DNA of 64,000 nt from Scatophagus argus (lineage: Eukaryota; Chordata; Actinopteri; Scatophagidae): the NCBI RefSeq assembly GCF_020382885.2, contig NC_058511.1, positions 2,635,501 through 2,699,500 on the forward strand. The letters run 5' to 3'. The notes under the pieces are model-generated. The model was given only the letters and a program-made list of their open reading frames with translations, made no database searches and had not been told where the DNA came from. The position numbers and the translations under genes were made by a program. Shown piece by piece: positions 1 through 52,251 of this stretch (within the stretch, counting starts at the first letter, position 1; every line of letters starts with the position of its first letter).

Positions 1-3000
1 TCTACAGAACGCCAAGCAGGAGGCAGAAGGTAGGACTGTTGTAGCATAAGGACGCACTTGTGACAAGAATTCAGTGTACGCGTCAGAGTTGGAAAAGATG
101 CCTTTTATCTTCAGTGAATCGTGTTGGTCTTTTGAGTAATTCGGCATATAAAAAACCATGAATCATGTTTTACGTTGTCGCTTTACGTGTGTACGTGTAC
201 GCCGGAAGATTGTATGGAAACCACGTGAGCCAATAAGGAAAGACAAAAATGTAATCCAGTTCGTGTTCCTAAATCGATCATGTGTGCGCCGAATTGAAAA
301 CAAGCTCAGGTTAATTCGGGTGTCGTGTTTATTGTTCTTTTATAACCTACGTGTTCTTCCTAGCAGGCGCAGCGTCATAAAAATGCAAGAAGTTTCATTC
401 GTATTTCAGTTTGGGTCCGTTGTTCACTTTTCCCCTCCACAAGTCCAGCGAAAACAGAGCGGATAAGCAACTTGCCGATGCAGCAGCGTTTGTTATTTAC
501 TCTCATATGTCAGAATTATAATTCACAAGTCTTCCTTTGAGTGTTTAATAACACACATCAGTGGGATCAACTCGCTGGATTAAAAAGACCCTCTGGCATG
601 AAGGTGGCGTAATATAATCCCTGTCATGCTGCCAATGCGGTGGCATTGCACAAACCAGCCTGACCGATGACTGTGCTCCTTTGTTCTCACACAGACTCGC
701 TGGAGACTTTTGTCCCTTACAAGATCACCACTTTACTCGGCCTGATCACAGCCGGGGCGCAGTTTTACAAAAGGTGAGTCGCTGTCCACACCTGCAGGGC
801 CACAGAGCCACTGGGCTGCACAGATGTTTTAATCCACAAGTTCCTTTTTGTTTATTTTGTGCCGTATGCCTGTGTTTTGTTACTGTTGAGTAGCCTTGGA
901 GTGAAAAACAGGAGCGAGGCGGAGGCCATTTGGCAGAAGTCTTATCAGTAAGTAAATAACTACAAGGACAAACTAAGGGAAAATCTAATCTATTCTAAAA
1001 TCACTCCCTCCAGACTTTGGATTAGCCTGTTTGTAATAAAACATTACAGAGATGAGATGAGTCACATATTGAGGAGATGAACAAAGCTTGTCTGTTGCCG
1101 TTTTGTCATATAGTGATGGAAATGTAAGCTCCATGTTTGTTCCCTCTCAGCCGAGCAGCAGTGCGAGAGCGGGTGGAGGAGCTCCTGCAGCTGGAGGTCT
1201 GCCTTCTGCATTTCTACATTCTGATGTTGCACAGTATGACTTAGACGCGGCTGTTGTGTTTTCACACAGTAAACTGCCAAATTCATGCACATCGAGACAC
1301 ATCTTTTGCTTAAGAAACAGAATAACATGACGTAGTAAAAGTCCTGCATTCAAAATGTTCTTTTTAGGAGCAGGAATGTACTTGTTAGTGATAAAACATT
1401 ACAATATACTTGAAGTACCAAAAGTGAAAGTACGTATTATGCAGTGTAGCCCCATTTCAGAATGATGTACAGCATATGATGTTGTTTATATTATTAATGT
1501 ATTAATATGTTTATCCTTGTACATTTTAATTACTTTACATGCTGTTGGGAAGCTTGTGAACTGAGCTCAGTAAAGCCTTAGCTAAATCTGTAATGATACA
1601 TCAAGTTATTTGTTGATTACACTTTGTATTCTTAATTTAAATCTGCAAAGTAACTAAAATTATCAAATAAACATGATAAAGTAAAAAGTACAGCATTTCC
1701 CTGTGGATTGTAGTTAATAAGCTGAAGTATAAAGTAGCAGAAAATGGAAATACTCCACCAAAAGTATGATTTAATAAATCAATGACTGTAATAAAAACTG
1801 ACATGACAGCATTAAAATGAGGCCGGCTGGCATCACGTGGTCCATTTGAAACGTTTGAGAAAGCTGACATAAAGCACCAGTTTCTAAGAGTGAAAGCCGT
1901 CCCAGATGTTTCAGTCTTGCTGTTGCATTATGTATTTATTGATGTTGCTTCACGATGATTTCTCGATGCTGCTTGGTGTTCGTTTGGTTTCTAATCTCGT
2001 GTGTCCGTGTGTGTAGAGCGAGTGGGACTCCTTCCTGGACAGTGTGGACAAACGTCTACAGACGACAGATGGACAGCAGTCAGGAGGAAAGATGGCCGAC
2101 AGCCTGAGCCCTGATACTCCTCTCACTGACGGACGGAGTGGAAAGTGAGTTCAGGGCCTGACGTTGAGCGTTGGTGTTCTGATGCTTTCTGAGGCCGTTT
2201 CTGTCTGTGTTGTGTGTGTGTGTGTTTTTAAAGGAGTGTGACTCTGGGTCAGTATCTGGATCAGGGTCAGAAGCTGCTGCTGGTTCTCATCAGACATTTC
2301 GGATGACTGCCGTGACGAGACCACGTGGCTGAACTGGAGGCCAGTCGGGTCAGTTTATGTGTAAAATGTTCCACAGTTCCCTTCGCTCTGCTGAACAGCC
2401 TTCTTCCCGCTGAACCTCCTCGCTTCTGGGGAGCTTTCACGTCGTCCGTCGTGTATACGGTCTTGTAGTACTCGAGTTGGACTTGAGCCTTATGTGAATG
2501 TCATCTGCAGCCATTCAACCGCAATTGAGTACAACAAGAAGCCAAAGAAAACTCACAGATTGGTTTGTACTCAGTGTCTTTGTTTGATTTTCGTTCTTTT
2601 TGTTTCTTGCAGGCTGTCCTCGAGGCTCGGTCACTGCGGGTCTTGGTCGTTTCTTTCGGCGGCGTGGAGGGAGCTCAGCTGTGGCTGGAGCAGACTGGAT
2701 GTACCTTCAACATGGTGTTGGATCCACCGAGGAAGGTCAGGATCGGTGTTTCGGCTTAATGAGGGAATGAAAGGATTTCTGGGAAGATTTGGCTTTTGCT
2801 TTGTAAAAATGAAAGGAATCAAGAGTCTTTGTCTGCATAGCAACACTGTTTATCACATTGTCTGCATGTTTACATTCAGTGCAGGGAGGTCAGGTGCGTC
2901 AGTATTAAAGAGGCATCAGTAATTCATGGAAACTGGAGATGGCTGTGACTCAGCACAAACAAACTGAAGGAGTCGGAGGGTTTAGCAGCTGTTTGATGAC

Positions 3001-3827
3001 GTGTCATTAAAGCCCAGCGAGCTGAGCCTCCAAATGTTTCGTTCTGCAAAGTCAGCCACCAGATGTTAGCAGATGTGAGAGGGGAAAAAGGGGCAGTGAA
3101 GCGAGTATGAAGACTTGGGTGGTTTTCCACATGCCACAGAGGCGCTCATAAATCTGTGTGTGTGTGTTTGCGTTGGCTTTTTACTTGTGATTTTGATGAT
3201 ATAAAACTACCAGGATGCGTTTCTGCAGACTAAAGCTTCTGTCCTGCGTGCCACAGATATACAGAAGTTTTGGCCTCGGCTCGTCCTACTCCAAGGTGAT
3301 GAAGTTCGGCTGCCTGCTGCGGTACTCGGAGTACGGGGCTGTGGACAGAGACTTCCCCGACGTGCCCTCTCGTCTGCTGGAAGACATCTACCAGGTACAA
3401 GCCTCAGGACCCTTCTTAAGTCCAATTATATGATGTAACACTGTGCTTCCATTACTTTACTGTAGTACAGTCACTGTTCTGTGCTCCTGTCATGATCCAC
3501 CTGCTGACTATTTGCACTGACTGTTTACTCACTTGCACATTTGTACTGCCTCACGGAACCCTATGTTATTTTATTATTATATGTTACTCGTTTTTTCAAA
3601 TTAAAAGAGTCTGATCTGACCAACAAGGGAATTCATTTTGAGAAGCTTTCTCAAGCCATTTTATGCTGTTGCTTCAGGCTTTAATGCGTGTTTGTGTTTT
3701 TCAGATGGGAGGTGACTTTGTGCTGGATGAAGCGGGGAAAGTCCTTTTTTGTCACCCGTGTGAAAACCCTCTGGACAGGCCGACCGCGAAAGACATCCTG
3801 CAGGCCGTGGAGCCATCCAAGCTGTGA
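1..3827 (+). CDS. selenol: Selenoprotein L, 3' part (peroxiredoxin-like 2 fold, UxxU)
   Basis: Exons read by eye: 1-29, 695-773, 894-947, 1151-1196, 2017-2144, 2234-2348, 2613-2735, 3257-3394 and 3705-3827 (stop TGA 3825-3827). Every junction is GT-AG and all phases close; the start lies left of the window. The product has an N-terminal helical part (FVPYKITTLLGLITAGAQFY), then a thioredoxin-like PRXL2/AhpC-TSA domain: LGQYLDQGQKLLLVLIRHFG, the redox motif, SLRVLVVSFGGVEGAQLWL, and the ending FVLDEAGKVLFCHPC. The motif has two in-frame TGA codons, read as Gly-Sec-Leu-Pro-Sec-Arg-Asp. Selenoprotein L of fish and some invertebrates is the known family with a U-x-x-U diselenide motif; a redox role is known only in general terms. 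PRXL2A/B/C paralogues lack two Sec. If Sec is not inserted, this would be a truncated protein, but the conserved coding downstream of both TGAs argues against that. Confidence 0.93.
2304..2315 (+). other. selenol: Two UGA selenocysteine codons (UxxU)
   Basis: TGA at 2304-2306 and TGA at 2313-2315 are separated by CTG CCG and lie in one exon whose frame is open before (VLIRHFG) and after (RDHVAELEAS). The two Sec sit where PRXL2 proteins have the peroxiredoxin-like C-x-x-C. Recoding needs a 3' UTR SECIS element. Confidence 0.92.
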
Positions 3828-4620
3828 GACTTTACGCAGGCTCAGAGTCTGAGGCTCTTCGGGGGGTTTTAAACGCATCGCTGACACCACAGAAGAAGAG
3901 CGGCTCTTTGACTCGCGTTCATGACGTCACGTCTTGCACTCATGACACCATGAAGAGACGTAACCGATGCCGAACCTTGATGCAAAGACAGCTGTTCTTC
4001 TTTGCTGTGTCAGCGATGTGTCAGTGGGAGCTTTTTTAAATGAGCGCTTGTGTGTGCAGACACGAAAGTAATTTAACTCTAAAAGTCACGATGATTTGCT
4101 GTTCAGACTTCACTGTGACGCAGTGAGGGGTAGCCTGTACAATTTAAACACTTCCTGCTTCATGAAGCTTGTTTGTTTCCATGTGGCCACGAAGCGAAGA
4201 GAAATCTTTGCTGTTGCAGTCCTCATTTGAAATGTCATCTTTTAATGTGTTGTAATGTAATTTTTAGATGAAACTGAGATTTTAGAGTAGAAGAAAAGAT
4301 AAAACTGCTGCTACAGATCAAATCTCTCATAGATAAAACGCTGTAGTTTGTCATGAACTGTGAGCTTTTTGATGTTTAAATCGCTCAGGATTTCTGATGA
4401 CTACAGACTGAAACGTGTCTGTATGTCATGTACCAAATGTACCAAATGCTGGTGCTGCTCAGATTTGGAATTTTGTTCTCTTGTTAGTGATCAGATTGTT
4501 CCTGATTAAATGTTTTTTGAAATGGCTGATTTTCAGACTGTTTTTATACAGTTCTATGTATTGAGGCTGGATTCAACATTTCAGGACTTTGGCCTCTTTT
4601 CTGTAATAAAAACAGATTTC
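3828..4620 (+). other. selenol: selenol 3' UTR with poly(A) signal
   Basis: About 0.8 kb of non-coding sequence follows the stop. AATAAA lies at 4605-4610, at the expected end. The UTR must hold the SECIS if the two UGA codons are recoded. No other gene is seen here. Confidence 0.75.
4385..4440 (+). promoter_or_regulatory. Candidate SECIS element
   Basis: ATGA at 4397-4400 is followed after ten bases by AAA (4411-4413), the spacing of the SECIS quartet and apical adenines. ACAGAC (4403-4408) pairs with GTCTGT (4417-4422) beneath the apical loop. The 3' side of the quartet reads TGTC rather than the usual NGAN, so the core is not canonical. A second, weaker hairpin is at 4338-4407, where CTGTAGT pairs with ACTACAG around another ATGA. 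The true SECIS may be either or neither. Confidence 0.35.
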
Positions 4621-4796
4621 TCAAAGTAAGCAATCAGATGGTATCATTTCGACACATAAAGCAAAAGAGATTTGCGCTGTGGAATAATAATAAGGTTCAC
4701 ATGTTAAAGCAAAACACGCAACAACTTGAAAGGAAACGACGTGACTCCAAACTCGCAGAATCTCGCTCAGTCTGGCAACACAGCCTTAGCCACAGT

Positions 4797-5058
4797 ATGA
4801 ACGAAATGCAGTGCGGACAGATGCTGCAGCTACTTCCTGTGGTCAGCGTGATGTCACTTCCTCATTGTGACTTTCAGTCTGTTTTAGGTCTAACTTTAAC
4901 AAAGTTCAAGCTGAACCTCAACTTCACACTTCGTCCAGTCCCACAGAGCATTTGTGATGATGAAGTGTTTCATAGCCTCAGAAGAAGAAGAAGAGGAAGT
5001 TGAACGTGTGAAGTTTGTTCGTTAAGATAAAAGTTTGCTTGACCGCATCTTGTTTTCT
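4797..5058 (-). pseudogene. Orphan receptor 5' flank (duplicated fragment)
   Basis: This stretch matches the upstream flanks of receptors B (13483-13735) and D (27695-27900). It includes the ACTTCCTGT (4832-4840) and CACTTCCTC (4855-4863) sites and the GAAGAAG run. No signal-peptide exon follows it. It is fused directly to the tail of receptor A near 5061, so it marks a lost gene or an unequal-crossover junction. 4621-4796 shows nothing recognisable. Confidence 0.7.
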
Positions 5059-8000
5059 TCAGTGTAAAACCTGCACAGACACAAACGGTGAGACGTTCAC
5101 AGTCCTGCATTACAGTAACATGAACAGTTAGCAGCAGCAGCTTCTCATCATCTACACTGACTCACAGTCCCTGATCATTGATACACATTTTGAATTTTAC
5201 ACACGGCTTCACTTCAGTGTTTCTGTTCAACTCACAGTGTTGTCATCAGGTGGTCTCTGCTTCCCTGGAAAATAAAGCACAGAGGAACATTTCAGCTCCA
5301 AACTTCCAGTTTGTGTTGGTCAGTCTGAACAAATGTTGGTCTGAATGTTCTCACCTGCAGCTCTGATGAGAAGAACAGCAATCAGAGTAATGAGGAGGAG
5401 TTCAGCCACACGCAGAACCAACATCATGTAGTCCAGAACAGAACGATCTGTACGAGCTGTGGAACAAGGACGAAAGTTTGATTTCATAGGTGGGGGTTGG
5501 GGGTGGGGGGCACACAAGTGTTTTATAATAAAACTCTAATCAACAAAACTAATACAATTTACAATGTTATTGAGAGCTTTGTAAATGATGAGGTGGATCT
5601 TGAAGTGGATATGCTGATTTATTGGAGCCAGTGAAGGTGTAGCAGGATGGGTGTAACGCATGACTCTGAGCAACTTACACTTTGACTTCTAAAGTCTCTT
5701 ATGTCCACTTTTCTGTTTTTAAGACATCCTGGCTGCGCCTAATTAACAAACACACACACACACACACACACTCACGCACATGGACACCGATTCAAACGTT
5801 AACGTAAATGAAACGTCTGATATTACAGTCCTTCTGGGTGACGTGACCCAGACCAGGCAGAACAAACGCCCAGTTTACAGGAGCAGATTAACACGGACTC
5901 CTGGCCGCAGACCAGCAGACCCACCGGTGTGCAAGCGGGGTGGAGTGACAGCAGGGGCGGCCAATCACACGAGAAACCGCGGAGCCAATCGGGGAGCTTG
6001 TGGGCGGTCTAAACTAAGGTAAACAGGCTTCAGCTTGAGCGACCGTTTTCCGCTCGGTCCTAGTGCTTGACGCGTGTCTGTTTACTATAGCGTAACATTG
6101 TTTTTGGACGGTAAAAGTGAAGGGGACATGTCCCCTTTGCCCCCCCTCATTACGTCCGTGTGTGGAACACAACAATAACGTCAGACGAGAAAGTTGGGCT
6201 CAGAAATCAGAAGCACAACACGTGTGTTTAGTCGTGTTAGCGACTGCAGGGATGACAAAGTCAGTCGGTCGTCCTCCACTTTGGTCCACACTGAAATATC
6301 TCAGCAGCCGTTGGACGGATTGTCATGAAAATGTGCTGAGTCAGTCATGATCCTGTGAGGATGAAGCCGACTGACTCTGGTGGTCCTCTGGAGCTGCCAG
6401 CACGAAGACATTTTGGACTTTTAGAGAAACGTCTCCACATGTTGGACATGAAAGTCTCCACAGACACCCATGTCCCCCTCAGGATGTCATCAACTTTGAT
6501 GATCTCCTGAAATCTGATGTGGCGCCATCTTCAGGTCAACATGTGAACTTTGTTTTATGAACAAACCTGCAAACGGATGAGATTCCCTTCAGCCTCAGCT
6601 GAACTTTGTGTTGTTAGCTAATTAGCAAATGTTAGCATGTTCACACACTAAACTGAAATAAAATATTGTGGATAGTTTTTCACATTTAAGACCACACGGA
6701 TGTGCAGTGAAACTCCAACAGACGTAAAGGTTGTTTACATGTTGGAAACAGCATTTTGTCCACAGCTTCCTGTTCTGACAGAAGTTACAACAGAGAAGAG
6801 AATTACATGGAACAGCAACGTTTTAAAATACTGATTTGTCTACAGCCGAAACATTCAACCATTTACTGATGAGACAACACAAAGCAGGAAACACAGACAC
6901 ACAAAGTGTCTGTCAGGATCTAAAAGTTCTTCTGCCTGCATGTCTTTGCTAACTGTGAGTTTAGTACAAACACAAAGAGAAAAATGCTGACTCACCGATG
7001 TTTAGTGGCCCCGGTGCTGGTGTAATATCATTGGTTGTTGTTGCTGTCGTTGTTGTTGTTGTTGTTGTGTCCTCACCTGAACAGATGAACACAACTCAAC
7101 AAACTGCTCAGTGCAAAACGTGTGTTGTGATGTGATATTAAAACTTCAAATCCATAAATGAAACAAATATTTGAGGTAAATCTTCACGTCACTTTGAAGT
7201 GACTTTAAACAGCTCAACATGTTCTCACCTGGTTTCTCACCTGAGGGCCGAGGACTGAAGAGAAACTGAACTTTGTCCCCATCAGTCACTTCACACTTCA
7301 ACAAGTCAAACCTCGACTCATAAATGAAATGTGAACTCAGACCCGTCAGAGAGGCAGAGCAGGAAGACTGTGATGTCTTCACTTGGTGGTTTTCTTTATC
7401 CACATCAATTCTATTAAACAGCCACTTCACTGTGTGTCCACATGGTCCATATGTCCACACAGAGCAGCTTAATGTCACCTCATCAGCGTCCTCACGTTCA
7501 GTCACTGGTGAAGATGGAGACATTGTGAGAGAAAGACAACAAGAGCAAAATGAACTTCATCACAGTAATCAGAATTATTGTAATGTTTCACAGTCTGAGC
7601 TGAAAACTTTATGATGTAAATACTCACTGGTGACCACAGACAGATGAACCTGAGAGTCTGGACCTTGTTGTTGTCCTGATTTGTACTGTCTGCAGGTGTA
7701 ACGACCAGCATCCTCAGCTGAGACCTTCTTTATAACCAGAGAACAGTTCTTTGTGACACTCAGTCTGTCTGAATTGGTTTTGGTCTGTTCACCAATCTGT
7801 CCAAGTTTAATCAGCTCTACTGCTGCTGTGTCTCGTCTTAAAGCATTGAAGAGCCATGTTGTGCTGTCACATTCCTGCTGACCGTCGATCATATTATTAC
7901 ACGGCAAACTGACTTGATCTCCATCTCTGACAGTGAAGTGGAGGACAAGCTGTCGGGTCGCTGCTGCTGTGAAGATGAGAGAGAAAGAAAGAATCAAGAG

Positions 8001-8272
8001 AAATAAAAAAGACTATTAATGTCAGCGTGAGGATGAAAGTTTGCTTATAAGCTTCATCTTTGGTTTGTCAGAGTTCACGAAACTCAACCTGCTGGAGAAC
8101 AAACAGAGTTGCTGTCTGTTGGGTTTCAAGTCATAAAATAACTTTAATGACATGAATAAAATAGTCTGTAAATGTCTGTGTTGGTCAAACACACGTTCTA
8201 TGTGTCCTTACCTGTAAACTGAAGCAGCAGCATCAGAAACAAAGACATTTTAATCCATCTGAATCCAGCCAT
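5059..8272 (-). CDS. Ig-superfamily receptor A, short-tailed
   Basis: Exons on the minus strand: signal peptide 8212-8272 (MAGFRWIKMSLFLMLLLQFT), V-type Ig 7628-7966, second Ig 7241-7504, Thr-rich stalk 6996-7076, transmembrane 5355-5456, tail 5236-5264, and last piece 5059-5070. The phases close to about 295 residues. The V domain shows LPC, CDSTTW and DAGRYTCRQ; the second Ig shows TLSCSVW and LLKCEV. The membrane segment LRVAELLLITLIAVLLIR carries an embedded Glu. The tail ends after GKQRPPDDNTVLH because the next tail exon is cut by the junction near 5061, so the Tyr-Glu-Asn motif of B and C is missing. A type I surface receptor is inferred. I recognise no named family; it is not clearly NITR, DICP or CD300. 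Expression is unknown. Confidence 0.8.
5466..6160. mobile_element. hAT-like non-autonomous insertion, receptor A
   Basis: A 695 bp block is flanked by the direct repeat TGTGGAAC (5458-5465 and 6161-6168). Receptors B and D have no block at the same place; B has a single TGTGGAAC and D TGTGGAGC. Its ends read AAGGACG and CGTCCGTG, a short imperfect inverted repeat. An 8 bp target duplication fits hAT, but no transposase is seen. It includes a short CA run and a G-rich/C-rich pair. The open frame at 5780-6022 looks accidental. Confidence 0.6.
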
Positions 8273-8347
8273 CGTGTCTCTTTTCTCTCTGCTTCCTCGA
8301 CTTGTGAGTCTCTACACTCAAGCTTCTTACAGAAAAATGTTGCGTCA

Positions 8348-8356
8348 ACTTCCTGT
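8348..8356 (-). promoter_or_regulatory. ETS/PU.1-like site upstream of receptor A
   Basis: ACAGGAAGT on the minus strand, about 75 bases upstream of the ATG at 8272. The same nonamer recurs upstream of B, C and D. A blood-cell ETS factor is an inference from the motif only. Confidence 0.4.
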
Positions 8357-8465
8357 AATAATAAAGAGTGACCTCCTCACAGTGACTGTCATCCTTCTTT
8401 TCACTCACAACTGTTGCTTTAATGAAGGCAGAGCACATCAGCTCTCAGCTTCCTCCTTCACTTGT

Positions 8466-9133
8466 TAACCTTCGTCATCCCCTTTTGGATAAAACAACTT
8501 TTTACAGCAATAAATCTTAAACAAAAGAGATAATTTGTTAAAGGAACAGTGACACATGTCATCACTGTGAAGTAAAATATTTCATTTGTATAAATTCAGT
8601 GGAATTTAAATTTCATTAGTAAGCATTCAGTGATGATTAAATATTACATATGCAGAAAGGTATGTATGTGTTTGTATGCATGTCAGTAACAGACATGATA
8701 GACATTTCACACATGTTAACTATAATGGAGAGTGGGATCAGCAACTGATGACTGCAAATTCAACTTTAATTGTTAAACAGGACACACTGACTTCACCACA
8801 ACACATCAGCTCAGCAGATCATATTATCAGTTCTAACCAACACACCACTGTTAATAATCAAAGTTCATTCAAAGCTCCTCTGAAACCTGAGCCGAAACAC
8901 TCCGGACCTCAAAGGAAACTAAACTGAGAACAGAGACGTCAGGCCGAGCTGCACAAAGGAAACAGTTTCATCAGCGACGCAGGAAAAGATAAAACTTTGT
9001 TAAACGGACAGCAAGCTTAAAATGAGGTACAAGCCAGACTTTGCGGCTCCTCGTGACAACCGTATGAACCGAGACCTCATCTAAAACATCAGAATGAAAT
9101 TGGATTAATAAGAAATGTGTGAGAGCAGTGGAC
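8466..9133. other. Spacer between receptors A and B
   Basis: Unique sequence not shared with the other units. It probably holds the 3' UTR of receptor B on its right side. I see no convincing gene. The open frame at 8676-8927 has no recognisable features. Confidence 0.6.
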
Positions 9134-12100
9134 TCATGTCTCTGGAGAGCTGCTGTTGGTGTGGAAGTGAACAGAAGCAGAGGCGTCTCCGGTGTTTTCA
9201 TATGTCACTGAGCTGTCGCGTCCGTCTTCTTCACAATGCACCTGTGAAAACAACACACCTGAGTTCAAATAGAACAAATAAATTCATCAACACTTCATAC
9301 GTTTAGTCAAAATTTCCCAGACTGCTGCATTTTCCTCCCAGCTGACTGTTAAGAAGCAGAACCCTGAACGCACCACCACCTCCTGTCTGAGCTGACGTTT
9401 ACCTGACCAGCTGCTGCACCTGAACGCCTCGCCGTCCGCCTTCTGACTGAGTGTGAAACCTGCACAGACACAAACGGTGAGACGTTCACAGTCCTGCACT
9501 ACAGTAACATGAACAGTTAGCAGCAGCAGCTTCTCATCATCTACACTGACTCACAGTCCCTGATCATTGATACACATTTTGAATTTTACACACGGCTTCA
9601 CTTCAGTGTTTCTGTTCAACTCACAGTGTTGTCATCAGGTGGTCTCTGCTTCCCTGGAAAATAAAGCACAGAGGAACATTTCAGCTCCAAACTTCCAGTT
9701 TGTGTTGGTCAGTCTGAACAAATGTTGGTCTGAATGTTCTCACCTGCAGCTCTGATGAGAAGAACAGCAATCAGAGTAATGAGGAGGAGTTCAGCCACAC
9801 GCAGAACCAACATCATGTAGTCCAGAACAGAACAATCTGTACGAGCTGTGGAACACAACAATAACGTCAGACGAGAAAGTTGGGCTCAGAAATCAGAAGC
9901 ACAACACGTGTGTTTAGTCGTGTTAGCGACTGCAGGGATGACAAAGTCAGTCGGTCGTCCTCCACTTTGGTCCACACTGAAATATCTCAGCAGCTGTTGG
10001 ACGGATTGTCATGAAAATGTGCTGAGTCAGTCATGATCCTGTGAGGATGAAGCCGACTGACTCTGGTGGTCCTCTGGAGCTGCCAGCACGAAGACGTTTT
10101 GGACTTTTAGAGAAACGTCTCCACATGTTGGACATGAAAGTCTCCACAGACACCCATGTCCCCCTCAGGATGTCATCAACTTTGATGATCTCCTGAAATC
10201 TGATGTGGCGCCATCTTCAGGTCAACATGTGAACTTTGTTTTATGAACACAAACCTGCAAACGGATGAGATTCCCTTCAGCCTCAGCTGAACTTTGTGTT
10301 GTTAGCTAATTAGCAAATGTTAGCATGTTCACACACTAAACTGAAATAAAATATTGTGGATAGTTTTTCACATTTAAGACCACACGGATGTGCAGTGAAA
10401 CTCCAACAGGAGTAAAGGTTGTTTACATGTTGGAAACAGCATTTTGTCCACAGCTTCCTGTTCTGACAGAAGTTACAACAGAGAAGAGAATTACATGGAA
10501 CAGGAACGTTTTAAAATACTGATTTGTCTACAGCCGAAACATTCAACCATTTACTGATGAGACAACACAAAGCAGGAAACACAGACACACAAAGTGTCTG
10601 TCAGGATCTAAAAGTTCTTCTGCCTGCATGTCTTTGCTAACTGTGAGTTTAGTACAAACACAAAGAGAAAAATGCTGACTCACTGCTGTTTGGTGGTCCT
10701 GGTGCTGGTGTAATATCATTGGTTGTTGTTGTTCTTGTTGATGACATTGTAGTTGTTGTTTTTGGCTTTGTTGTTGTAGTTGTTGGCTTTGTTGTTGTTG
10801 GCTTTGTTGTAGTTGTTGGCTTTGTTGTTGTTGGCTTTGTTGTAGTTGTTGGCTTTGTTGTTGTTGTTCTTGGCTTCATTGTTGTTGGCTTTGTTGTAGT
10901 TGTTGGCTTTGTTGTTGTTGTGTCCTCACCTGAACAGATGAACACAACTCAACAAACTGCTCAGTGCAAAACGTGTGTTGTGATGTGATATTAAAACTTC
11001 AAATCCATAAATGAAACAAATATTTGAGGTCAATCTTCACGTCACTTTGAAGTGACTTTAAACAGCTCAACATGTTCTCACCTGGTTTCTCACCTGAGGG
11101 CCGAGGACTGAAGAGAAACTGAACTTTGTCCCCATCAGTCACTTCACACTTCAACAAGTCAAACCTCGACTCATAAATGAAATGTGAAGTCGGAACCTTC
11201 AGAGAGGCAGAGCAGGAAGACTGTGATGTCTTCACTTGGTGGTTTTCTTTATCCACATCAATTCTATTAAACAGCCACTTCACTGTGTGTCCACATCGTC
11301 CACGTGTCCACACAGAGCAGCTTAATGTCACCTCATCAGCGTCCTCACGTTCAGTCACTGGTGAAGATGGAGACATTGTGAGAGAAAGACAACAAGAGCA
11401 AAATGAACTTCATCACAGTAATCAGAATTATTGTAATGTTTCACAGTCTGAGCTGAAAACTTTATGATGTAAATACTCACTGGTGACCACAGACAGATCA
11501 ACCTGAGAGTCTGGACCTTGTTGATGTCCTGATTTGTCAAACTGTCTGCAGGTGTAACGACCAGCATCCTCAGCTGAGACCTTCTTTATAACCAGAGAAC
11601 AGTTCTTTGTGACACTCAGTCTGTCTGATTTGGTTCTGGTCTGTTCACCAATCTGTCCGAGGTTAACCAGCTCTACTGTTCCTGTGTCTCGTCTTAAACC
11701 ACTGAACACCCATGTTGTGCTGTCACATTCCTGCTGACCGTCGATCATATTATTACACGGCAAACTGACTTGATCTCCATCTCTGACAGTGAAGTGGAGG
11801 ACAAGCTGTCGGGTCGCTGCTGCTGTGAAGATGAGAGAGAAAGAAAGAATCAAGAGAAATAAAAAAGAATATTAATGTCAGCGTGAGGATGAAAGTTTGC
11901 ATAACCCAAAGGGTTAGAGTTAACTCCTGTCACAAAGGAAGCGGCGTCGCTGACGCAGAGGATTGAACCCCGATGCAGAGTCAAAAAAGGGCAGGCAGGC
12001 CGAGATCCAAAACTATTTTCTTTATTTTCTAACAAAGAAACTCAAAAAAACAGGCACACGCTTACTGGGGCAAGGATCAACAAAAAGTACAACAAGACGA

Positions 12101-29683: not shown

Positions 29684-32537
29684 TTAAAGTGCCACCCTGT
29701 CGTCAAACTCGCACAGATAGTTCATGGTCCGATCGCAGTAGTGGTCCCACCAGTCGCCATCGTCTGACGACATTGCCACACAGTTCTCCCGCCTGCCTCC
29801 GTCCGGCTGGCTGGACAGGAAGTGTTTGCGCCACTGAAAGTACGACACCCGCGTCCCATCATCGAACAGGTACATGCCTTCAGACCGCAGGTCGTTGATG
29901 CCCAGCCAGACGGGCCAGTTCCCGGGGTGGAAGAACGACTTGACGTAGTCGGCGAGGGCCTCCTGCTCCTTGCGGTCTCGGGGCATCGCCATGCGGCCGC
30001 CACGTTCCAAGCACTTCCTGGACGCTCCGGCGTAGTCTTCATAGCTGTTGTACACAAGATAACATTTGTATCCTATCCTGCGTCCCTTCTGGCAACCTGA
30101 GAAGCAGAGAAAAACAAGACAGGTTCTTCGCCACACGTTTAGAAAATTCATTTTATCAGTTCGCTGTCATTGTATCAAAAAACCACAAATGGATTTAAAA
30201 CTGTGCGCAACATATTTTTGGCCACTTTATCACACACATTATCCCTTTATGCAGCAAAAGGAAAAAAAAAATATAATAGTGAAAAGATTGAAACAAAATT
30301 TTCAAGTTATGAACCATAAAACCAAAACAATGAGCTGAAAGATGCTAAAACAGAGAAGAAGAACTCTTCTCTGAGAATTTGTCACTATTTGGAACAACAA
30401 CAACTTTTCTTCTTCATGTCATTTTGCAGAAATACTGTCCGGGTCTGTTCCTGGGAACTTTTTCAAGAAGCTATCCTTCCAATAAGGAGCTCTGCCAGCT
30501 GCCACAGGTTGGATAATAACTAGACAGAAACGGTTGCAGAAATGATTTCTTCACGCAGCAACATTACACACCGAGACAACCAGCAGCTGTCGGTAATTTC
30601 TGGATGCTGTATTGTTTAATTCACACAACAGTATTGTTTACTTCACACAACAGTGTGTCACATGGACTGAGGTAATACTGAACCTGTTGTTCTGTGTACA
30701 AACGTAAGAGAGAAGAAGTTATTGGACCTAAAAGTGTTATTGATCTTTAATGTCACCCTGACTGGAGCACTTAGGTCCGTCAGTGCTCTTCATCTCAAAG
30801 GCTTCACATGTCTTCAGTCTGACAGACTGCAAAACAGAAAGACCATCTCTCTTTTCAACCACTTGTCTCTGTTGTCTTTTCAAACACAACCGACACAGCA
30901 GAGATCCAACTCTGATACCTTCCAGTCTTCCTGTCTCCTTGCGGTTGTCCTTGCTGTGCTGGTAGACCTCCCGGATGCTGTCCTCCAGCTCCCCGACTTT
31001 AGCTGCCATGTTAGCAAACAACAAAGACAAGGAGCCATGACAGTCAGCACAAGGCGTCGTTCTCTTGACTGTTCAAGTTAAAGGACCACAGCAAGGAGCG
31101 AAACCCTGCCTGTCTCAAGACTTGTGGAAAGAAACATTGATCAGAAGACTATGTGTAACTGGTCAACTCAGATGATGTGTGGGACAAAGTGCTCGTCTTA
31201 CCGTCCATTCTGGACAGACGGTCTATCAGCTGGCTGACTTTAACATCCAGAGTGTAGTGACCGACATTCAGCTTGTGGATCGCCTGGTCCATGCCAGCTA
31301 GTCTGGACACTGAGGAACACAAAGGGATAAGAAGAAGAACAGGAAAGAGAATGCAGATGTGGTGAAATATGAAATATTACTGCGCCTCATCTGTGTTTCA
31401 CAGTTATTAGGTCAGACTAATATATGATGCAGATACTTTCCACAGGGATGTCATGGTGGCTGTCTATTTGAACCTGAACTGGACATGAAGAGACTCACAG
31501 ACGTAGTTGTATGAGTTTTCAAAGTCTGACACTGGGCTGGTTGGCTCCGGTTCAGGCTCTGGAAGGATATCAGGAACGTCCCCTCTCGCCTTCTTCACCT
31601 CTGGCAGGGATGCCTGATACAAAGAGAGAGTGAGACAAATCATCACGTCAACCTTTCCCAGATGCTGCGTCTACCACATTTAGCTTCTGTTAGCTTCTTT
31701 GCTCCTTTGCTTCTTTGGTCGATGAGGTGAAACACAAACCAGCTTCCTCACAACCAAATCAAAAACGAGCTCATTAGGGTTGTATCCAAAATCTGAATCA
31801 CCTCCCTGTGCACATCTGGACACGTTCAAATCAAACTTGGTCAACTTTGCCAACAATTTCAGTTTTATCAACATTATTAAACAAGTTGGACTCAGCTCAG
31901 TTTATTCCTTTTAGATTTAGAAGCTTTATGGGTAAAATCTGTTCTCATACTGCTCTGAAAAAGCCTTTCAGGATCACTGAAGCACCAGCAAACAAAATGG
32001 TTGTGGAATATTCAGCCTCATGAGTTGAAGAGTTCTTCACAGTGGAAATAAATGTTTAACATACTATGTTTGCCGTCAAAGAAATCTGTTCATATGGATC
32101 AACTCTTTAAAGGTGTTTTATCTTAAAGTATCAGCAGATGAAAACCTGGCAGCTGGACCTGCTCCTTATCAGTCTTACCACCGCACTATGTGTTATCTTT
32201 AACGTGAATAAAGTGGCGTAATGACTGGCAGTTCAATTCAGCTCAATTCGGTATCTTTTTCAAGCTGATTTATTTGCACTTGATGTTGACGATCTTCTGC
32301 TTGCTTCAGCTCCACCTGAGTCGCTCCTACACCAACACTGTTGTTTACAGCCAAACGGGCTTACAACACTAACTGCCGCATGTCCAGTGACACAGATGTT
32401 GTTTAACTGAGTCCACGCTTCAGTAATAAAAAGACAGGGCTGACCTGTGTTGGTGTGGAGGCGGCCATTCCTGCGGGGACGCACAGACCCAGAGCGCACC
32501 AGCACATGAGAGCGAGCGGAGGGGCAGCCGGTCCCAT
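29684..32537 (-). CDS. clec11a: C-type lectin 11A (osteolectin / stem cell growth factor)
   Basis: Exons: 32445-32537 (signal peptide, MGPAAPPLALMCWCALGLCV), 31499-31613, 31202-31309, 30919-31002 and 29684-30096; 813 bases, 270 residues, all phases closing. Secreted growth factor for bone and blood progenitors in mammals. Order: signal; a linker with ARGDVPDILPEPEPEP; a coiled-coil-like part (SRLAGMDQAIHKLN, YTLDVKVSQLIDRL, DSIREVYQHSK); then the C-type lectin domain from GCQKGRRIGYKC to LCEF. The domain shows WPVWLGINDLRSEG, YLFDDGTRVSYFQW, QPDGG, ENC and DDGDWWDHYC, matching CLEC11A more closely than tetranectin (CLEC3B) or CLEC3A. RGD and LDV sit where human CLEC11A has RGD and LDT, the known integrin motifs. 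Confidence 0.9.
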
Positions 32538-42308: not shown

Positions 42309-43472
42309 TCAGGCTGTGCTCTGACCGGCATCAGGGAGGCCGAAATTCTCATTTTTCATTGAACTGTCACCATTTACATGTGGGTGAATGGCAAAAGCAG
42401 TGGACGGCACTGTTTTTGAGCGCCGTTTGCGTGAGCGATAACACAGCAGGTAGAAGATCTCGGCCACGTTGAGAAGAAGAGAGACGCAGGACACCACAAG
42501 CATGAAGATGATGAAGATGGTCTTCTCCGTGGGTCGAGACATGTAGCACTCTACAGTGAAGGGACAAGGGGCTCGGGAGCAGACCACCTGCGGGTTCATG
42601 ACGAACCCATAGAGGTAATACTGACCCACAATGAACGCTACCTCCAGAACGATTCTGGAAATGATGGAGGTCATGTAGGTTCCCAGCAGGTTGCCTTTAA
42701 TCTCAATGTGGCCTTTCTCGTCAGTGTACTTGGGAACTTTGACGATTTCACTTTTGGAGTGGGACTGCATGTATTGTCTCATCTTATTTTCTTTGTGGAT
42801 AACATGGAAGACGTGACCGAGGTAGATGAGAGTCGGTGTCGAGACGAAGATGATCTGGAGGACCCAGAAGCGAATGTGTGAGATTGGGAAGGCGTGGTCA
42901 TAGCAGACGTTCTTGCAACCAGGCTGTTTGGTGTTACAGACCATATTGGACTGTTCATCTCCCCACACCTGTAATGTTCAGAGGAGGAATTAATATCATT
43001 GCATAGGTACAGAAAATGGACTGAGTGCTAATGCTGATAATGTAAATCCATTATGTCTGTAAGTGTGACTCTTTAAAGGATAAGCAGTCATAACAGAACA
43101 TGAAGAATGAACAATTTTAAACAAGATAAATAAGTTATACATGTTTCAGTATAACTTGAAAATCTTAATACAATCAGAAAATCTCATAATTTGTTGTCAA
43201 GCAGAATCCTGTTCTCACAGCTGTGTGGAGCTCCACTGTGGCCACTAGGGGGCGTTATTTCACATGAAAGCTTTCAACATGTCAGAGTCAAAAGTCAGGT
43301 AAAAAGCTACAAAAACCTAAAGTATGAAGAAACAGCAGGAGACCTTATCTGCTCCAGCCCCGAGGATCATGATCCTGAAGATGAAAAGCACACTGAGCCA
43401 GACCTTCCCGATGACGGAGGAGTGGGACTGGACCTTATCCAGCAGAGAGGACAGAAAACCCCACTCGCCCAT
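42309..43472 (-). CDS. Connexin 1 (Cx32.2/32.3-like gap junction protein)
   Basis: Coding exons 43344-43472 and 42309-42968, 262 residues. Four membrane segments. Extracellular loops carry [12 protein letters not shown] (C-x6-C-x3-C) and [12 protein letters not shown] (C-x4-C-x5-C). The start is MGEWGFL at 43470-43472: an upstream in-frame ATG at 43497-43499 is removed because a splice acceptor (CATCAG before 43482) lies between them. A non-coding first exon begins at 44397. The intron falls after residue 43. Forms hexameric hemichannels in the plasma membrane. A poly(A) signal on the minus strand is at 41694-41699. It resembles connexin 2 throughout; exact orthology is unsure. Confidence 0.9.
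43241..43255 (+). promoter_or_regulatory. CTCF-like motif in connexin 1 intron
   Basis: GCCACTAGGGGGCGT matches the CTCF core very well and sits in the intron after codon 43. Similar to 49619-49633 in connexin 3. Confidence 0.45.
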
Positions 43473-45988: not shown

Positions 45989-46849
45989 TTAATGACCACT
46001 CAGCAGTCGTTTCTCCTCTTTGGCTCCATCCAGACTTCCACCGATGCTCCGGCTGTTGTCCAGCTCCATGTTCATCTTGTTCTGCTTGAGTGCGTCCTCC
46101 ACAGTCGGCCAACTGGGAACCAGCAGAGTGGCAGGGTTTTCCGCTGAATTGATCTTGTGAGGGCGAGGCCTGGACCCACATTTGACTCTGGTACAAAGCA
46201 GGTAGAAGACCTCGATGACGTTGAGAAACAGGGAGACGCAGGCCACCACCAGCATAAAGATGATGAAGATGGTCTTCTCTGTGGGCCGGGACATGTAGCA
46301 CTCCACAGTGAAGGGACAGGGCTTCTTAGAGCAGGGGAACATGGGGACCATGATGAAGCCGTACAGGTAGTACTGGCCCAAGATGAAGGCACCCTCAATG
46401 ACGATCTTGAACACCAGCTGGGTCAGGTAGCTCCCCAGCAGGTTCCCCTTGATCTTCACCTTTCCCTTATCATCCGTGTATTTGGGCATTTTGAGCAGCT
46501 GGTTCCCCCCGGGGCTCGAGAGCTGCTCCCTCAGCTTGTTCTCCTTGTGGATGACGTGCATGGCGTGGCCCAGATAGACGAGCGTTGGCGTGGAGACAAA
46601 GATGATCTGGAGGACCCAGAAGCGGATGTGCGAAATGGGGAAGGTCCAGTCGTAGCAGACGTTCTCACAACCAGGTTGTTGAGTGTTACAGACGAAACCT
46701 GACTGCTCATCACCCCAGACGCTCTCAGCACCCGCACCCAAAACCATGATCCTGAACAGGAACAAGACGCTCATCCAGATCTTCCCAATGACCGTGGAGT
46801 GGGACTGGACCTTGTCCAGCAATGATGACAGGAATCCCCAGTCGCCCAT
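45989..46849 (-). CDS. cx32.2: Connexin 2, gap junction Cx32.2-like
   Basis: A single coding exon, 286 residues from [20 protein letters not shown]. Loops [12 protein letters not shown] and [12 protein letters not shown]. It closely matches the teleost ovarian connexin Cx32.2 described from Atlantic croaker. A non-coding exon with a good donor begins at 47393, and an acceptor (TATCACAG) lies just upstream of the ATG. Unlike connexins 1 and 3, there is no intron after codon 43. The variable C-terminal tail ends in [11 protein letters not shown] role in ovarian gap junctions is known for the croaker protein and inferred here. Confidence 0.92.
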
Positions 46850-47009
46850 CTTTGTAGGTGATGTATTCCGTTAGTGATCTGTGATACAAAGATGATAGGA
46901 GATACTATGAAAAAACTAACTTCTGACCTTGCTTTTAGAGACTGTACACCACACCTGAAATATTAACTGAAACACTAACCGCAACTTCAACAATCAATAT
47001 GCTGCCGTC

Positions 47010-48772: not shown

Positions 48773-50474
48773 TCAGATGTGGATCTCCCCCATGTTGTTG
48801 TTCTCAGACAATACAACTTTAGCAGCCTCGTCGACACCATTCACCCCTAACTTTCGCTCAAGTTCCAAGTTGACACAATTTTGGATCATCTCGTTGTGGC
48901 TTTTGAAAGCTTTCCTTCCCGAAAGCGGAGGTGTCACCGGGGTCACGGTGTAGTCCTGCCTCCTGGCCATGCACTCCTTCACAGCTTTCACACACAGGTA
49001 GAACAGCTCAACCACGCTGAGGAGGAGGGAGACCAGCGCCGCCACCAGCATGAACCAGATGATGACTGACTTCTCGGTAGGCCTGGACAAGAAGCAGTCC
49101 ACCTGGTGAGGGCAAGGGAAGCGTGTGCAGACGTAGCGAGCCTCGAGGGTGAGGCCATAAAGAAAGTACTGGCCCACTATGAACAAGACTTCTAAGATAA
49201 TCTTGGCCACAAGATGGAGGACATAACTGCGAAGGAGACAGCCACGGATACTGATTTTGCCAGTGGTCTTGATGTACTTGGGAACTTTATAGGCCCTAAG
49301 GAACAGACAGGTCTGGTCATCCAACTCGGCCTGCTTCTTCATCCTCTCCTTCTCCTTGGGTTGGAAGACCAAAGAAACAGAGTTAGATATTTTACAACAA
49401 TCTGAAAAGACTTGAGACTGAAAAGTTAAAAGTTATTAGGCAAGACAAGGAAGATGGTCAGAATGTGGCTAAGCACTTGTAGCGTGTAGTGCTAACCTCA
49501 AGCTAGCTACACCTGCTGTTTTTGATAACAAAACTACCTTTAAGTTCACAAGAATGTAGGAGACGGTGCTGAAGAGATAGACTTGGAATGAATGCTTTAA
49601 CGCTGCATTCAACTTTTGGCCACTAGGGGGCAAACTGACAGAGCAAACCTTTGTGCACTTTTAGCATTAATCTCTGATTCTAGTCATGTAATGAATGCAA
49701 GTCCAATATTCAGTTGTTATTGTTGTTAAACATGTGAGCTAGAATTAGCAAAAATCTAATTCTAAAAATTCTAAAAATCTAATTTGAGCAGCAGAAATTG
49801 TAATAATTTTCCGTACTTAACATCGTAACAGGCTACTCCAGGTATGACATGCCTGACAATCAAGCATTCACCAGTCACTCTATCAAACTACACCCACGGC
49901 ACTGACACACCTTCTTCTCAATGTGGATCACATGAAGGACGTGACCAAGGTAAAGCAGCTTCGGAGTCGCTACAGCAATAATCTGAAGGAACCAAAAGCG
50001 GACGTGAGAGATGGGGAAGGCAATGTCGTAGCAGACGTTCTCACATCCAGGCTGCCGAGTGTTGCAGATAAAGTCTGATTGCTCATCACCCCACACCTAG
50101 AAAGAAATGATAGAAAACACAAAACCCAAACTTCAGAGAGTTTAAAGTGTAGCAATACTCATAGAAGTGCTCATTTGATGGCACTTCTCATCAGTCATTT
50201 GGCTTTTGAGACATTCCACAGACCCATTGATATTGTTTCAGCTATTAAAAGTTTGCCCCTTTGATACTAACACTACACCCCCCTCCAACCATGTGCCCTG
50301 GGCTCCCCATGCAGTGCGTTTTAAATAGTGAACATATGACCAGACCTTCTCAGCACCAGTGCGCAGGACCAGGATGCGGAACACAAACAGCACGGTGAGC
50401 CAGACCTTTCCGATCACTGTGGAGTGACTCTGCACTTTATCCAGCAGGCGGCCCAGCACATCCCATTCGCCCAT
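48773..50474 (-). CDS. Connexin 3, alpha-type features
   Basis: Exons 50346-50474, 49911-50096 and 48773-49354; 298 residues. Start [20 protein letters not shown]. Loops [12 protein letters not shown] and [27 protein letters not shown] precedes the fourth membrane segment. [14 protein letters not shown] is alpha-connexin style (as in Cx43). The first intron lies after residue 43, as in connexin 1; a second intron cuts the cytoplasmic loop after residue 105 (HIEKK), which is unusual for connexins. A CA microsatellite (48647-48687) lies in the 3' UTR and AATAAA on the minus strand is at 48461-48466. A likely non-coding first exon starts at 51364. Orthology (Cx34.4/35.4-like or GJA1-derived) is not settled. 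Confidence 0.88.
49619..49633 (+). promoter_or_regulatory. CTCF-like motif in connexin 3 intron
   Basis: GCCACTAGGGGGCAA matches the CTCF core; it has the same orientation as 43241-43255. Confidence 0.45.
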
Positions 50475-50489
50475 TTCAGTTGCCAGTTC

Positions 50490-52251
50490 CTGCTTTACAA
50501 ATCCATTATGACCCACACATAGTCGAATACAAAGATCTCTCGAGGTATACTATACTGTTAATTAAGAAGTACGCTATATATTGGTTAACCAAAAGAGAAT
50601 ATTTTGTTGATGTACAAAGGTGATACAGAAGTTGTTGTAGGTGTAAAGTCAGAACAGACAGACTCTCTAACAAGGCCAAACTTTTGTGAGTTTGCTGATA
50701 GAAGCAACAGCTGCTGAGTCCAAGTCTCCAAAACACAGTTATCTGTTGGAAACCAAAACCTTAACCTCGGTTAATACCAACCACTGCAGTGAACTCAGCC
50801 ACTCAGCTACAAACGTGGCTCAGCCTTGAGAAGATGAGACTTTAAGGTTTATTGCATAAACATTCACATATGTTTCTAATGTTTCTTTTACAGCATTGAT
50901 TGTTTATTCTCAATTTATTGATCTTGTATGGTTTTTTAGTAACAAATTTTGCCTTGTTGTATTGTTTTTGCCCCTCTTGATTTAATCAGAATAGCAAGTC
51001 GTAGAGCTTTAAAAGTCTCAAATGTTTGACTGCTTTTAAGCTGTTCAGGAAGTCCACATCATATGGATGCGGTCACATTTTTATTTCTTACTACAGTAAA
51101 GTACTGCCATAACCATAACAACCATAACTACTGCCATGCAATAACTACTCAGTTCCACTTTTTCAGTCTTCCTTTAAGGTGTGCATCCACCTCATGCCTG
51201 TGCACAAATGACATGCATGTGGTACAAATACTGCACAGTAGATTATTATATAACCAACAAATTCAACAAACATGAAATGTTAATTTTTTAAAAGTTCATG
51301 TTCAGACTGATATCAGTTAACATTTCTGACAAGGGAGATCTGACTTTTTAAAAGTGAACTTACCAGTCGAACAAACCCGTAGAGAAAACAGGTGGATGAA
51401 AAGAGCGATGAATCAGGAAGACGGCGAGAGGGAAAGTGAAGGACAAGCAGAAGAAGAAGAAGTCTTTCATTGTTCCTGTGGCATCTTATCTGGAAGGACA
51501 CCATCCTTTTCCTCCCACAACAGACCTGCAGCCCTGAACACTGAATGTGATAGGCTGGAAAAGCTTTGTTATTTGTATTTTACTTCTGTGGACAGAAAGA
51601 CAGGGGTGACAGGTCACATTCAAACTAAACTAAGTCATTTATGTTGCATATTTTATGTGCATAAGGTTGACAGATTTAAAGGGAAAGGCTGAATAACTGA
51701 GTGGAGAAACAAACGCAGGTGCTTCCATACTTGAAGTGAGGGCTCTCTAAAAGGTTTGAGGAGTACAAACGTGATGTGAACCAAATGCTGTGACCTGATC
51801 AGATCTCAACACAAAATGTTCAGCACATGGACTGCCGTAGATGTTCAAATTGTTCCATGATGGCTTGAGAGTTGACCCTGACCTTGAACACTACTGTACT
51901 AATTTTGTACTGTACTGGCATCTCTGGAGTCATTCTGCAAGGGGACAAGCAAGCAGTGTGTTTTGTTTAATGTTTTACTTCTACCCGTTTCTAGAATATG
52001 ATTTCATTGCTATTACTCATGTTTTTTAGTTTTTGCTTATTCCGTTCTGTTTCTTTTATTACAGCTGCATTATTGGTCTCCATTCCCAGTGCTTTTATGG
52101 CACTTTCAGCTGCATTATTTGCATGAAAGGGAGTTGAGGAGGAGAAAATCGTTATGATCAAGCATGTCAGCATATTTCCTTCATTTCTCATGAAGTTTCT
52201 GAAAGAGAAGCAAAACACCTTCACAACCTTACCTGTTTCATGTTCCAGATA
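50490..52251. other. Intergenic between connexin 3 and the SINE
   Basis: Contains the likely connexin 3 non-coding exon (from 51364, CTG then GTAAGT on the minus strand). Otherwise A/T-rich with no gene seen; the frames at 51354-51692 and 51841-52029 are featureless. Confidence 0.45.

Follow-up and report, generated by a model that had tools for sequence, protein, structure and literature searches.

A probable selenoprotein L gene of Scatophagus argus with two in-frame UGA codons and a SECIS-like element of unusual apex and stem

Introduction

When two TGA codons stand three codons apart inside a frame that is otherwise open, are they stops, or are they read as selenocysteine (Sec), and what signal would then serve them both? 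The question is raised by a gene at the left end of the window, by which we mean the whole stretch of 64,000 nucleotides analysed here (C19:2635501-2699500 of the 570.7-Mb Scatophagus argus genome in 48 contigs). In selenoprotein L (SelL, SELENOL), as outlined in PMC3316567, two Sec lie two residues apart and are served by one SECIS, and PMC2397514 ascribes a diselenide bond to SelL. The initial annotation of this DNA expected a gene finder to split or truncate the gene at the TGAs. This agrees with what the accessible text of PMC12822975 says of Ensembl, where SELENOE, SELENOL and SELENOJ together have less than 1% well annotated genes and SelL ranks with the most poorly annotated selenoprotein families. 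For RefSeq, the same text has the fish-specific selenoprotein families annotated no worse than the mammalian ones.

We suggest that the gene is very probably a ray-finned fish SELENOL in which the UGAs at 2304 and 2313 are read as Sec, with one form-II SECIS-like element at 3911-3980 as the signal. The family is a known one. The unusual points are the apex and the stem of the SECIS-like element.

Results

Gene structure and the two UGA codons

The two TGAs lie in one frame with CTG CCG between them, in an exon that begins after the acceptor AAAG/GAG and ends at the donor CGG/GTCAGT (Table 1). Joining nine exons across introns that are all GT/AG gives a single open frame of 303 codons plus a stop, interrupted by nothing but these two TGAs and closed by the terminal one; the remaining two frames have 9 and 7 stops. 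The gene model is complete, and it is intact over the 303 codons, without a frameshift, a further in-frame stop or a broken splice site, and its predicted protein of 303 residues runs from MAADV to EPSKL with Sec162 and Sec165 as predicted residues. With exon 6 as the query, the genome returned one match, exon 6 itself. Pfam places AhpC-TSA_2 (E=1.8e-13) and AhpC-TSA (4e-11) on the protein, and weak sequence matches in the PDB are to a thioredoxin-family chain (3e-5) and to prostamide/prostaglandin F synthase (0.00039). The earlier observation of in-frame TGAs within an open exon is thus confirmed, by the nine-exon frame and by the AhpC-TSA_2 domain. The product of exons 2-5 (695-2144) also has a weak Smac_DIABLO match, which at 18 bits (E 0.002) stays under the cut-off of 25.

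Table 1. Positions in the window of the gene and of its SECIS-like element
Feature	Position	Strand	Remark
Exon 1, 3' end (LQNAKQEAE)	1..29	+	start ATG (L011:4924) upstream of the window, 77 bases ahead of its first position
Exon 2	695..773	+	GT/AG sites, joined frame open
Exon 3	894..947	+	joined open frame
Exon 4	1151..1196	+	joined open frame
Exon 5	2017..2144	+	joined open frame
Exon 6, redox motif HFG-U-LP-U-RDH	2234..2348	+	paralogous exon also 115 nt
UGA, predicted Sec162	2304..2306	+	aligned with Cys of the C15 paralogue
UGA, predicted Sec165	2313..2315	+	aligned with Cys of the C15 paralogue
Exon 7	2613..2735	+	paralogous exon 123 nt
Exon 8	3257..3394	+	paralogous exon 138 nt
Exon 9, coding part	3705..3827	+	terminal TGA 3825-3827; joined open frame
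3'UTR	3828..4625	+	poly(A)-signal-like sites 4505 and 4605 (AATAAA at 4605); end is an estimate
Long hairpin with the SECIS-like element at its tip	3873..4021	+	149 nt; arms match
SECIS-like element	3911..3980	+	core AUGA 3921-3924 / CGAU 3965-3968; helix II 3926-3935 with 3955-3964
Apex parts of the element	loop start GCACU at 3936; ministem 3940-3944 with 3949-3953	+	form II
CAC replacing the apical AAA	3937..3939	+	anchored comparison with nine genome SECIS

A paralogue with cysteine at both places

A SelL-like paralogue with open exons lies on the minus strand of contig C15 (C15:4873001-4883000, L055). Exons 6-8 measure 115, 123 and 138 nt in both genes and their splice phases agree. In the motif exon the paralogue reads FSCLLCRLH where the window gene reads FGULPURDH, so that its two Cys are aligned with the two UGAs. 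Over exons 6-9 the genes are identical at 79 of 162 aligned residues, and their differences fall on the three codon positions as 59/45/98. The paralogue is therefore like the window gene in exon lengths and phases and unlike it in having Cys at both places; no match to our SECIS model above 9.1 bits is found in the 10 kb around it.

Cys residues facing both UGAs are a classic indication that these encode Sec, though a Cys-x-x-Cys homologue gives general support for Sec and is not a published criterion for SelL. Since the downstream frame, the splice phases and the homology to this paralogue are all kept, the pattern of two TGAs goes beyond chance.

Family identity

Two features of SELENOL are present, namely U-x-x-U from two in-frame UGAs and a peroxiredoxin-like, thioredoxin-fold domain around the motif, and we take the window gene to resemble teleost SelL. 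The SelL of fishes and aquatic invertebrates, as these sources describe it, shares with the window gene the two Sec codons two residues apart and the peroxiredoxin/thioredoxin-like fold, and it has one SECIS, where the window gene has one SECIS-like element (PMC3316567, PMC3473315, PMC2397514, PMC12822975). By these descriptions, through which alone the family is compared here, the window gene differs from it in the CAC apex and in carrying its SECIS-like element on a 149-nt hairpin.

The SelU/PRXL2 genes have AhpC-TSA_2 in common with the window gene. The profile PF13911 finds nine exon matches in the genome, among which are several in U-x-x-C genes and one in the SelL-like gene on C15; the window's own gene is absent from the nine. 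The U-x-x-C genes (RRPGUFLCRE, RRPGULLCRE), presumably SelU, differ from the window gene with its U-x-x-U. Three such genes have a SECIS nearby, two found by Rfam RF00031 (L002, L004) and the third by our own model (L016). Protein scans for relatives gave 211 pattern matches in contigs of prokaryote genomes and 17 in viral contigs, with none confirmed in either.

Selenocysteine machinery in the genome

The tRNA-Sec model has 26 matches in the genome. The match on C5 scores 78.1 bits, well over the cut-off of 47; two others are just at the cut-off (47.6 and 47), and these and the remaining matches are presumably tRNA-Ser. Searching the genome with RF00031, for which 150 of 13487 first-look candidates were scored, gave at least nine SECIS, three above the family cut-off and six of the nine below it. 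One in-frame TGA is seen in 8 of 18 exon matches to GPX, and at least one TGA in 4 of 7 deiodinase matches.

From the nine SECIS we built a covariance model (R1), anchored by hand on the core because RNAalifold gave no structure from the unanchored alignment. R1 has 31 matches in the genome, which reduce to 16 distinct SECIS (nine being the model's own sequences) and three weak places. The seven SECIS outside the model score 13.6 to 33.7 bits. Three of the 16 (L003, L009, L010) are not tied to a gene. Left out of the 16 are the weak places at 11.5 bits or less (L028/L030; L004/L015/L017; L025:3204) and the AA-bearing SECIS-like sites in L049, L054 and L035, which were picked by requiring AA. 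For the deiodinase gene L026/L029, R1 has no SECIS match within its 3-kb loci. The deiodinase gene L027 (C6, minus strand) apparently has two SECIS in its 3'UTR, at 710-772 and 430-492, separated by about 280 nt; each shows the core, the helix and AAA.

TGA is a stop by default, and the gene could be a pseudogene or could end in a truncated isoform made without Sec. We consider this very improbable. Homology, frame and codon-position pattern all mark the exons downstream of the TGAs as coding, both TGAs fall exactly at the paired Cys positions of the paralogue, and the genome holds a tRNA-Sec match and other SECIS. Thus the claim of the initial annotation that this is a selenoprotein L with U-x-x-U and Sec reading is supported, by the UGAs on the Cys codons of the paralogue, by the tRNA-Sec match and by the SECIS-like element in the 3'UTR.

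A SECIS-like element in the 3'UTR

The element at 3911-3980 was first picked by eye and then compared with the nine genome SECIS. At the foot of helix II the letters UGAC (3922-3925) stand opposite CGAU (3965-3968), which places GA against GA, and 9 of the 10 positions of the helix are paired. Measured along the mRNA, the core lies 522 and 513 nt downstream of the two UGAs, which exceeds the minimum distance of 51-111 nt given in PMC3316567. The AUGA/CGAU core letters, helix II and the ministem are those of eukaryotic form-II SECIS, whereas CAC in place of AAA and a much longer lower stem set the element apart.

With filters off, R1 ranks 3911-3980 (+) first on both strands of the 64-kb window, at 15.1 bits (E 0.16) and with a lead of 1.6 over the next match at 13.5; with default filters it is not returned. 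Since 15.1 bits is in the low part of the range of the genome SECIS outside the model, the score alone is not decisive, and the weight rests on the place of the element, in the right UTR and on the right strand. A simple grammar (RTGA, a helix of 10, NGAT) with at least 9 pairs has one match on both strands of the 64 kb, which is the element, and a site with at least 9 pairs, at least 8 of them Watson-Crick, arises in 2 of 3000 shuffled UTRs; both pair thresholds were chosen after the site was seen, and the strict one used for the shuffles would be met by only 2 of the 9 model SECIS (L003, L008). At a minimum of 6 pairs the grammar sees 7 of these 9 and misses L002 and L010.

Other scans are less favorable. 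Rfam SECIS_1 (RF00031) has no match to the 3'UTR at E up to 5 or up to 10, and Rfam as a whole has only matches below the curators' cut-offs on 1-12000 and on the UTR. A loose scoring scan fails to separate the element from shuffles: it scores 27, an AA site at 4395/4494 scores 29, and 100 shuffles reach a maximum of 34 with a median of 24. We rejected that AA site, since its 5' arm folds into a plain Watson-Crick hairpin with, as we read the letters, no GA opposite the TGA. A CC site at 4163, from a strict scan demanding AA or CC, was likewise rejected for its poor fold (-2.5 kcal/mol); some site was present in 33 of 60 shuffles. The SECIS that the initial annotation looked for in 3828-4620 is therefore there in part: a SECIS-like element lies in this interval, but it lacks the apical AA and Rfam SECIS_1 is blind to it.

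As the candidate is non-canonical, the real SECIS could be another, canonical one, reached through a longer or alternatively spliced 3' end; a canonical SECIS could also escape our grammar, which misses L002 and L010. However, no site that combines the core and AA with a helix of at least 8 of 10 pairs is found on either strand of the 64-kb window. The next R1 matches near the gene, at 10.6, 9.3 and 7.7 bits, are two short loops and one that is almost helix-less, and those of the whole window start at least 2.4 kb beyond the UTR. SelL is moreover described with a single SECIS (PMC3316567, in the part cited here). We regard a second, canonical SECIS as improbable, and continue with the element at 3911-3980 as the candidate signal.

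The CAC apex

In a canonical SECIS the apical loop or bulge carries an unpaired AA (or CC) on its 5' side. The element lacks this and has G-CAC-U where all 16 of the other genome SECIS counted have AAA, a count that is biased because RF00031 and R1 both favor AAA. In the cited part of PMC3316567, nearly every vertebrate SECIS has AA, CC being given for SelM in placental mammals and for SelO in mammals, and PMC2874816 mentions a CC apex in DsbA of Ciona savignyi. According to PMC3328465, as excerpted, a SECIS needs three unpaired adenosines or cytidines, and an apical-loop mutant still allowed the SBP2 domains to interact; from PMC3706390 we take that the AAR motif is essential, yet dispensable for L30 binding. 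The two accepted letters are combined in CAC, which makes a function of the candidate apex plausible but unproven. No SECIS of this kind was found in the literature searched, which consisted mostly of open papers, seen in part, and in which CAC was not sought by name.

Alternatively, CAC may stem from an error in sequencing or assembly, or may be a rare allele, in which case the SECIS of the species has ordinary adenosines and the Sec reading is untouched. Two base differences would be enough, there is a single assembly, and vertebrate SECIS nearly all have AA (PMC3316567, same part). On the other side, the window is without N, the frame is intact and the arms of the hairpin match, though none of these probes the three bases themselves. 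We think such an error or allele unlikely.

The long hairpin

The element sits at the tip of a long hairpin. A 161-nt stretch around it has a minimum free energy (MFE) of -70.2 kcal/mol (z -7.42, with 0 of 200 shuffles as stable), and equal stretches around the nine other genome SECIS have z of -0.38 to -3.12. The predicted fold has 41 pairs in the extended lower stem. The ministem is retained in the MFE fold, as are the upper seven helix II pairs. In both the MFE and the centroid fold 3925-3928 are paired with 3966-3969 and the core is not formed; the MFE fold pairs the core otherwise because GA core pairs do not exist in the energy model. We suggest that the core would form in the RNA.

A search of the genome for a second copy of the hairpin, in which very common words were skipped, returned nothing beyond the locus itself and its two arms. 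Thus we rejected the idea that the hairpin is a transposon copy.

The gene may instead be a SelL in early decay, whose SECIS has lost its apex. Sec insertion would then have failed or become weak, a product of 161 residues would be made or the mRNA degraded, and the paralogue on C15 would cover for it. The CAC points this way, since the 16 other SECIS counted have AAA, as does the existence of a Cys paralogue with open exons. However, a gene of 303 codons without a frameshift, further in-frame stop or broken splice site argues against decay, and so do the kept letters of the core, helix II and ministem and the very stable hairpin. Decay thus appears rather unlikely, if a little less so than an error or allele at CAC. 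Each explanation considered in this work was given its odds independently of the others, and the odds do not add up to one.

Other features of the window

Downstream of the gene, the minus strand of 5067-27431 carries a cluster of duplicated frames that have Ig V-set domains and weaker C1-set matches (four Ig-like frames were scanned), along with TTKPTT mucin-like stretches and repeat offsets of about 3.85, 8.3 and 12.2 kb. Its duplicated unit contains two minus-strand matches to the CPEB3 ribozyme model (6883-6947 and 10571-10635), with equal score and alignment, at 20.4 bits against a cut-off of 35. A C-type lectin frame (Lectin_C, 6.5e-15) lies at 29687-30166 on the minus strand. Two successive connexin reading frames occupy 42312-42977 and 45992-46870, also on the minus strand, and a further connexin-like frame was seen by eye at 50241-50549.

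Discussion

The SBP2, eEFSec and diselenide steps of Sec biology are known for eukaryotic selenoproteins and for the SelL family. We hypothesize that the kink-turn core of the SECIS-like element would be bound by SBP2, and that eEFSec would deliver Sec-tRNA at UGA 162 and then again at UGA 165. Sec is thus predicted at both UGAs. By analogy with the described family, the U-x-x-U in the peroxiredoxin-like, thioredoxin-fold domain may form a diselenide between the two Sec for redox chemistry.

The step about which we are more reserved is the apex. That the candidate CAC SECIS on its extended lower stem works, and drives the insertion of two Sec three codons apart, is to us a real possibility to which we give somewhat less than an even chance; the CAC tip may be functional. 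Should the apex be too weak, the gene would instead be decaying, with the Cys paralogue covering for it.

The paralogue on C15 and the window gene form a matched pair within one genome, in which the use of Sec and of Cys can be compared. If the CAC SECIS works, the apical requirement is wider than AA or CC, and a long stem might make up for a weak apex. Provided that it is real and functional, the CAC apex would serve as a natural experiment on what a SECIS needs in its apical motif.
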